DNA of 64,000 nt, taken from assembly GCA_013298075.1 (NCBI GenBank), contig JAAFJG010000018.1, forward strand, positions 1 through 64,000. Direction: 5' to 3'. This DNA comes from Cytophagales bacterium (GTDB lineage: Bacteria; Bacteroidota; Bacteroidia; Cytophagales; Microscillaceae). How positions within the stretch are numbered: position 1 is the stretch's first letter; each line of letters opens with the position of its first letter. Below are positions 55,148-57,135 of the stretch, one piece after another. The notes under the pieces were generated by a model. That model saw only the letters and a list, made by a program, of their open reading frames with translations. It made no database searches and was not told the origin of the DNA. A program made the translations under genes and the position numbers.

Positions 55148-55564
55148 TTAAAATTGTTCTAAACTTTCATCTTCTTTTACTCTCATTATTTTTGCTTCTT
55201 CTTCTGATTTATCTCCAAAACCTAAAATATGCCAAACGCCATGAATCATCACTCGTTTTAATTCATTTTCAAACATAACTCCTTGATTATCAGCATTTTC
55301 TTTTACTCTTTCAATACTTATATAAATATCAGAATCAATAATTGTTTCAGATTCGCTCTGGTCAAAAGTAATAATATCAGTATAAGTATCGTGTTGCAAA
55401 TATTCCATATTAATTTGGTGTAAATATTGGTCATCACAAAAAATAAAATTCATTTCGCCCACTTCATATTTTTCACTTTGGATAATTTTTTTTATCCAAA
55501 TGCGTATTTTTTGAGGTTGTGGTACTTCAAATGTTATATTTTCATAAAAAAAACGAATAGGCAT
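55148..55564 (-). CDS. ybeY: Endoribonuclease YbeY (16S rRNA maturation)
   Basis: The start at 55564 (MPIRFFYENITFEVP) gives 138 residues. YbeY is a zinc-dependent RNase acting in 16S rRNA 3' maturation and ribosome quality control. The metal motif reads MIHGVWHILGFGDKSEEE. The first two His of H-x3-H are present, and the third ligand position holds Asp in GDK, as is usual in Bacteroidetes versions. Upstream parts include the conserved DIITFDQ stretch. The next plus-strand ORFs start divergently about 50 bp away. Confidence 0.93.
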   Translation of the reverse strand: MPIRFFYENITFEVPQPQKIRIWIKKIIQSEKYEVGEMNFIFCDDQYLHQINMEYLQHDTYTDIITFDQSESETIIDSDIYISIERVKENADNQGVMFENELKRVMIHGVWHILGFGDKSEEEAKIMRVKEDESLEQF

Positions 55565-55617: not shown

Positions 55618-55760
55618 ATGAGTATCATTTATCCAATTTTTTTTTTACGTTTATTGACTGTACTAAACCTCCAAAATTTGATTCTGTTAAAGATAGTATA
55701 AGGGAAGTCAAAAAACAAAAACAAAATTCCCAATTAAATTTCAAAATCAAAAAAATATGA
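55618..55760 (+). pseudogene. Possible small lipoprotein ORF interrupted at a run of ten T
   Basis: An ATG at 55618 opens MSIIYPIFF and enters the T10 run at 55637-55646. In its own frame it then reads a hydrophobic nonsense tail. A one-base shift inside the run would continue as FTFIDCTKPPKFDSVKDSIR followed by EVKKQKQNSQLNFKIKKI, with a Cys after a hydrophobic stretch as in a lipoprotein. The shifted frame ends in TGA at 55758-55760, overlapping the ATG at 55757 of the next ORF (ATGA). This could be an off-phase contingency gene, a decayed gene, or chance. Confidence 0.35.
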
Positions 55761-55855
55761 ATAGTTCATTAAATATATCGCAAATGAAATCAATGAATAA
55801 TCAAATTTTACAAATTCGTAAAAAAATTGATGAAATAAGTGAAAAAATGCAATAA
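55757..55855 (+). CDS. Small coiled-coil ORF 1 of a tandem array, shortened by a nonsense codon
   Basis: The 32-codon ORF ends in QILQIRKKIDEISEKMQ followed by TAA. The same frame then continues ATG AAA GAA AGT TTA TCA (MKESLSTDNRKN, to 55894). Aligned with ORF 2 (ICKKIDEFCQKISEMKANLS), the TAA stands exactly where ORF 2 has GAA (Glu), so this copy looks truncated by one base change. It is AT-rich with no Shine-Dalgarno, as is usual here. Function is unknown. Confidence 0.45.
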   Translation: MNSSLNISQMKSMNNQILQIRKKIDEISEKMQ

Positions 55856-55952
55856 ATGAAAGAAAGTTTATCAACAGATAATCGTAAAAACTAATATTTT
55901 TCAAAAATTAAACTTAATAACAAAAACAACAACTTATCATTCTTTACTTAAT

Positions 55953-56105
55953 ATGAACGAGAATACTGAATTAAATACTCAAAAACCAAACAAAGAAGAA
56001 ATTCAAAATTCTGATATGATTGAAATTTGCAAAAAAATTGATGAATTTTGTCAAAAAATTAGCGAAATGAAAGCAAATTTATCAAAAACTAAAAACCTTA
56101 ATTAA
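55953..56105 (+). CDS. Small coiled-coil ORF 2 of a tandem array
   Basis: A 50-residue protein has a polar N terminus (MNENTELNTQKPNKEEIQNS) and a heptad-like C-terminal helix, IEICKKIDEFCQKISEMKAN, ending LSKTKNLN. The helix is shared with ORFs 1 and 3. ORF 3 starts 5 bp after the stop. No signal peptide or known family. The repetition supports its being real. Confidence 0.5.
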   Translation: MNENTELNTQKPNKEEIQNSDMIEICKKIDEFCQKISEMKANLSKTKNLN

Positions 56106-56110
56106 AAAAT

Positions 56111-56248
56111 ATGAATACTTTACTCAATAAAACAAAGACGTTATCAATAAACGAAAAGATTTTATTACTTCGCAAAAGAATTACTGAATCTAATCAAAAA
56201 ATTAGCGAAATAAAAATAAATTTATCTAAAAATAACGATACAAATTAA
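56111..56248 (+). CDS. Small coiled-coil ORF 3 of a tandem array
   Basis: A 45-residue protein whose C-terminal part (ILLLRKRITESNQKISEIKI, then NLSKNNDTN) matches the ORF 2 helix (KKIDEFCQKISEMKANLSK). The N-terminal part differs. A terminator-like hairpin follows at 56316-56357. Function is unknown. Confidence 0.5.
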   Translation: MNTLLNKTKTLSINEKILLLRKRITESNQKISEIKINLSKNNDTN

Positions 56249-56315
56249 AAATATTACACACGATAATTGACCTTTGAAACATTGACACAATAATAATTTA
56301 CTACTTTATTTTGTC

Positions 56316-56357
56316 TTAAAACCAAATTTCTGAAAAGAATTTGGTTTTTATTTTTTT
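56316..56357. terminator. Terminator between the small-ORF array and the rhomboid gene
   Basis: AAACCAAATT pairs with AATTTGGTTT and is followed by TTATTTTTTT on the plus strand. It suits the small-ORF array and overlaps the end of the convergent rhomboid gene. Confidence 0.75.
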
Positions 56358-57135
56358 AGTATATTCTTTTGATTTTCCAATATTTTATCAATAAAAAAGC
56401 AATCAACGCTCCACCTAAATGGGCAAAATGGGCTACATTACTCACGTCAGAACCACTAAAACCCATAAATAATTCATATACTACATAAAATCCGATTAAA
56501 TATTTGGCTTTGATAGGCATCGGAAAAAACAATAACATCAATTCTACGTTTGGAAACAATAACATAAATGCTAATAAAATTCCAAAAACTGCTCCCGAAG
56601 CACCCACCATCGAATACATATCTAAACTTTCTTTAAACATCGTTTTTAGTCCTTTTGCTTGTTGTTTTCTTTGTTCAGGAGTCATTTTATCAATATCTTC
56701 TTGCCATTTTTCTGCTTTTTGAATATATTCTTTATGATGATAAGTATCTAAATATTTAACAAAATTCTCTTCTGTGGGATATTTTTCTAATTGCGTAAGG
56801 TTTGTATTTCTCAACTCTGTTTCGCCAAAAACAATTCCCAAATTAATCAATGCTGCCCCCATTCCGCAAATAAAATAAAAAGGAATAAATCTTCTTGAGC
56901 CTAATGTATTTTCTATCCAAGGTCCAAAAAAGAACAAACCTAACATATTGCTAATCAAATGGCTAATATTGGCGTGCAAAAACATATACGTAAGAAGTTG
57001 CCAAGGCTGAAATTCGGGCGAAGTAAAGTATCGCAACGCAAATAATTCTTTAAACGGCAACGAGCCTAATTCTTGTAATAAAAATATCAGAATATTAGCA
57101 ATTAAAAGATTGCGAACGATAGGAGTAGGTTTCAT
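56356..57135 (-). CDS. Rhomboid family intramembrane serine protease
   Basis: The start at 57135 (MKPTPIVRNLLIANILIFLLQ) gives 259 residues and six membrane segments. The catalytic pair is visible as GASGAVFG (Ser at about 177) and the last-helix His in AHFAHLGGALIAF (about 234). The HANISHLISNML stretch in the second helix matches the conserved rhomboid loop. A soluble insert of about 60 residues (about 108-170) sits between helices 3 and 4. Substrates are unknown. The longer frame to 57183 is not needed. Confidence 0.92.
   Translation of the reverse strand: MKPTPIVRNLLIANILIFLLQELGSLPFKELFALRYFTSPEFQPWQLLTYMFLHANISHLISNMLGLFFFGPWIENTLGSRRFIPFYFICGMGAALINLGIVFGETELRNTNLTQLEKYPTEENFVKYLDTYHHKEYIQKAEKWQEDIDKMTPEQRKQQAKGLKTMFKESLDMYSMVGASGAVFGILLAFMLLFPNVELMLLFFPMPIKAKYLIGFYVVYELFMGFSGSDVSNVAHFAHLGGALIAFLLIKYWKIKRIY

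Follow-up and report, generated by a model that had tools for sequence, protein, structure and literature searches.

Lineage-restricted (orphan) small-protein families are a known bacterial class, and a further known class comprises coiled-coil microproteins, which work by forming a pair with a partner helix. In the window (the whole 64,000-nucleotide stretch of DNA that was analysed), a tandem array of three short ORFs lies between ybeY and a rhomboid-family gene (Table 1). We lean towards reading this array as a family of coiled-coil microproteins that is restricted to one genus and evolves fast, arose by tandem duplication, and is gaining, losing and breaking copies.

Table 1. Coordinates of the array and neighbouring features (window genome, G000; second species, G001)
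Feature	Position	Strand	Details
ybeY, flanking gene	55148–55561	−	Pfam PF02130, E 9.8e-27
Remnant of a different short ORF	55635–55760	+	open frame without ATG, GTG or TTG start
Copy 1 (ORF 1)	55757–55855	+	32 aa, ends at in-frame TAA 55853–55855
Copy 2 (ORF 2)	55953–56105	+	50 aa, predicted helix at residues 14–49
Copy 3 (ORF 3)	56111–56248	+	45 aa
27-base identical stretch	56282–56308; L007:1401–1427 (minus)		G000 versus G001
Hairpin with U-tract	56318–56348	either	usable as terminator by the array and the rhomboid gene
Rhomboid-family gene, flanking	56356–57135	−	Pfam PF01694, E 7.7e-28

Three tandem ORFs of 32, 50 and 45 codons had been described in an earlier, sequence-only reading of the window, and all three are present as described. 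A C-terminal helix is common to them, as that reading had proposed, but the motif it gave for all three, KKIDExxxKISEMKxNLSK, is exact in ORF 2 only (KKIDEFCQKISEMKANLSK). The counterpart in ORF 3 is KRITESNQKISEIKINLSK, and that in ORF 1 is KKIDEISEKMQ-stop-MKESLS. The frame of ORF 1 does run on beyond its TAA, as had been noticed, with 12 more codons open up to a TAA at 55892–55894. In ORFs 2 and 3 the codon aligned with the first TAA is GAA, but the copy-1 orthologue of a second species has AAA there, so that the claim that the stop replaces a conserved GAA holds among the window copies only.

The second species, of the same genus, is represented by a metagenome-assembled genome (MAG; G001, RDXZ01000196.1), and the window genome is a 4.7 Mb assembly of 153 contigs. 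In G001 the array recurs between ybeY and the rhomboid gene, in the order ybeY, a 37-aa hydrophobic ORF, copy 1, copy 2 and the rhomboid gene. Specifically, copy 1 is intact and encodes 45 aa, while copy 2 is frameshifted: an A-run in the MAG sequence lacks one base, and the shifted frame then reads SEMKSIFSKNINKN. Copy 2 measures 38 aa from an inner ATG or 42 aa from an outer ATG. The G001 locus lacks copy 3. Homologous copies thus occupy one locus in two species, three in G000 versus two in G001, with a different copy broken in each (copy 1 in the former and copy 2 in the latter) and with the heptad pattern kept.

To compare the copies, we performed pairwise local protein alignments of the three window copies and the two G001 copies (10 pairs, 2000 shuffles each), reading window copy 1 past its stop with X and G001 copy 2 only up to its frameshift. 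The z scores range from 3.7 to 9.9, and the observed score is reached by 0–2 of 2000 shuffles in seven pairs and by 3–5 in the remaining three. Judged by these alignments, the window and G001 copies are a real homologous tandem family. The earlier proposal of a real, evolving tandem family with one decayed copy is supported by this similarity, by the second species, and by the different copy that is broken there. We also counted plus-strand ORFs after shuffling the 794-base interval that holds the array (2000 dinucleotide shuffles). At least one ORF of 45 or more codons appears in 289 shuffles, two such ORFs in 13, and two such ORFs together with a third of at least 32 codons in 4, indicating that an isolated ORF of this length is nothing unusual at 20% G+C, whereas the three-ORF set is rare.

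The AlphaFold2 model of ORF 2 (alignment A2, five rows) consists of one helix spanning residues 14–49, with a mean pLDDT of 79.8 (94 over residues 21–30 and 97 over residues 31–40) and a pTM of 0.50. The heptad a/d positions of the copies carry I/M, I/L, I, I/F/S/A, M/I/L, M/I and L/F; 33 of 35 a/d cells are hydrophobic in the coding frame, compared with 12 of 73 cells elsewhere, and the pattern is matched by 13 of 20,000 column shuffles in their best phase. In the control frames, the hydrophobic a/d cells number 21 of 22 versus 22 of 57 elsewhere (frame +1, four copies) and 11 of 22 versus 9 of 53 elsewhere (frame +2). Because frame +1 gives a similar pattern, the heptad signal is partly DNA periodicity. 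The array combines a heptad hydrophobic pattern with a predicted helix, as in a small coiled-coil family, and its predicted products are probably coiled-coil proteins.

A search of 37 genomes, G000 included, with ORF 2 at E up to 5 gave matches in 15, and only those in G000 and G001 adjoin ybeY. A further match in G001 (C250) was rejected as a family member, as none of its listed ORFs of 30 or more aa resembles the family, and a match in G010 (L012) lies in a frame with an internal stop. A five-row profile of the copies, built from G000 and G001, was then run on 15 genomes of the taxonomic family. At E up to 1, 13 of the 15 show a match, mostly inside long frames; matches below 1e-10 are confined to G000 and G001, which supplied the profile, so that their E-values are not independent, and the best match in the other 13 has an E of 0.046. 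A wide spread in Bacteroidetes, where the sequence-only reading had suggested a search for relatives, was not seen, with strong matches in only 2 of the 15.

The profile found no convincing relatives in the 12 other genomes of the taxonomic family or in 394 other genomes of the class, with no match below 1e-4 in the latter. Matches at E up to 0.05 occur in 47 of the 394 (48 of 395 with G000), and the best class-wide match outside G000 (E 5.5e-4) lies inside a 371-residue frame; G001 is not among the listed class-wide matches, evidently falling outside the class sample drawn. In other genomes of the family and class, most matches fall inside long frames and align over 10 to 35 of the 43 positions; these were read as chance coiled-coil similarity. 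A few fall in short frames, several with stops. The genus has a third genome (G002, 79% complete), in which neither the array nor ybeY was found; downstream of its rhomboid gene lies another gene.

Homologues thus appear to be confined to close relatives, as in a lineage-restricted family. With ORF 2 as sole query, there is no match in phages (E limit 10) or in plasmids (E limit 1), and 15 stretches of viral contigs match a search pattern, none encoding a relative. The three window ORFs stay below the Pfam cut-off (best 14.8 bits versus 27), NCBIfam gives no match at E up to 0.1, PHROGs gives weak matches only (best E 0.0068 and 0.0072), and none of the titles listed by a literature search deals with an array of this kind. 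Upstream of ybeY in other genomes of the taxonomic family, 11 loci are listed (L017–L037), of which nine are usable (L035, which has no ybeY frame, and L032 were left out). In seven of the nine, a gene beginning ...ENIRIVESFIDNA..., which we take to be an ATP-binding regulator, lies directly upstream on the same strand, unlike in G000 and G001, where ybeY is divergent to the array. No small divergent ORF is listed for any of the nine, so the order ybeY, array, rhomboid gene is seen in G000 and G001 only.

Downstream of the array, the terminator that had been proposed was found by folding as a hairpin with a U-tract, although a terminator consensus scan does not list it. The folding energy of positions 56300–56357 is −10.7 kcal/mol (z −2.8), which 1 of 200 shuffles matches, and the opposite strand, that of the rhomboid gene, folds about as well (−9.8). 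In G001, a hairpin of different sequence occupies the corresponding position (z −1.7), and 10 of 200 shuffles of that stretch reach the same stability. Directly before the hairpin is the 27-base stretch, which is single copy in each of the two species and absent from G002 at up to three mismatches; the interval around it is otherwise much diverged between the species, and by eye it is the best kept part. The plus strand of the interval has no TAnnTTTG site, and the count of sigma-70-like sites does not exceed that in shuffles (20 found versus 20.5 expected). The single Rfam match, to a viral element (E 0.063, under its cut-off), was read as chance.

Upstream of the array, the TGA of the remnant ORF (55758–55760) overlaps the copy 1 ATG. 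The remnant is 50% identical over 26 residues (E 0.006) to the 37-aa hydrophobic ORF of G001, which is intact at L007:1844–1957 (minus), and the window frame sits behind a run of ten T. Some match to the 37-aa ORF at E up to 1 occurs in 12 of the 15 genomes of the taxonomic family, the best outside G000 and G001 having an E of 0.096. We considered a toxin-antitoxin pair made of a hydrophobic peptide and a helical partner. In G001 the hydrophobic peptide gene next to its would-be partner is intact, in the window it is not, and this candidate was dropped because the window ORF has no usual start.

The main rival explanation is a dying gene family, in which an array functional in the common ancestor has lost constraint and the intact ORFs are chance survivors becoming pseudogenes; we place it on the unlikely side. 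Comparison of G000 and G001 orthologues (fractional counts rounded; protein-level alignments, which favour low pN; Fisher test) gives a pN/pS of 0.66 for copy 1 (p 0.14), indistinguishable from 1, as decay would predict, and of 0.51 for copy 2 (p 0.034). Over both copies together the ratio is 0.58 (p 0.011), which argues against lost constraint, while ybeY gives 0.17. Within the window, paralogue dN/dS is about 1.0 (copies 2/3), 0.63 (copies 1/3) and 0.75 (copies 1/2), again in the direction of decay. The signal of purifying selection, for which the sequence-only reading had suggested a dN/dS check among copies, is modest between species, and the window paralogues give about 0.6 to 1.0; constraint on the array proteins appears weak to modest by these counts. 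A dying family would also fit the breakage of one of the three G000 copies and of one of the two G001 copies, as well as the missing start of the hydrophobic ORF in G000, yet at least one copy is intact in each species despite a synonymous divergence of about 0.6–0.9.

Quite improbable, in our estimate, is a non-coding A+T-rich repeat, that is, an RNA or DNA element whose units are open by chance and whose working part is the 27-base element plus the hairpin. By codon position, the array has a G+C of 0.24/0.21/0.18, which comes close to that of the non-coding remainder of the interval (0.20) and differs from that of eight window genes taken together (0.43/0.32/0.22). This composition, the well-kept single-copy 27-base element, and the indel and stop inside copies are consistent with such a repeat. 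Against it, constraint is greater in the coding frame than in the other two. Specifically, in a protein-similarity null that keeps aligned base pairs (10 copy pairs, not independent), the coding frame has a mean z of 1.62 and five pairs with p no higher than 0.05, compared with 0.21 (one pair) and 0.60 (no pair) in the other plus-strand frames. By the same shuffle, the two copy-2 orthologues, which are the closest pair, show no constraint at protein level (z −0.34), and little is seen between copies 2 and 3 (z 0.53). The rarity of the ORF set in shuffles and the chance reading of the sole Rfam match also count against a non-coding repeat.

For the microprotein family, we count the synteny and homology in G001, the ORF statistics, the pairwise protein alignments, the coding-frame similarity, the pN/pS, the heptads and the helix. 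Against it, we count the near-non-coding composition, the z scores of the copy-2 pair and of copies 2/3, the frame +1 heptad pattern, the lack of TAnnTTTG, the shuffle-level sigma-70-like sites, and the fact that the indels in A/T runs rest on a MAG (G001) and a 153-contig assembly (G000). In such a family, the intact copies would be translated from one short transcript ending at the hairpin, and each product would comprise a flexible N-terminus and a single amphipathic helix, about three heptads long, which could pair with itself or with other copies as a coiled coil. If the copies are interchangeable partners, the loss or breakage of single copies would cost little, which would explain the turnover. 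It is unlikely, though conceivable, that the array represents a family which emerged only recently within one genus from the A+T-rich DNA between ybeY and the rhomboid gene, with its origin at a rearrangement point, and caught duplicating, diverging and losing copies.

If translated, the array would be a compact case of tiny-protein turnover, with one locus, two species, and different copy numbers and broken copies, and a test case for how genes arise and disappear at lengths often skipped by gene callers. Because the second find is in one related species only, with a different copy broken, the array looks like an ordinary fast-changing orphan family; it is ordinary in kind and gives no hint of a novel type of system. 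Its predicted single helix with a pattern of three to four heptads resembles coiled-coil microproteins. It is like orphan small-protein families in that its members are very short, occur in a close relative only, appear to be under weak constraint, and are reached by no family model, and it differs from such families in general in that it consists of predicted tandem paralogues with different broken copies in each species.
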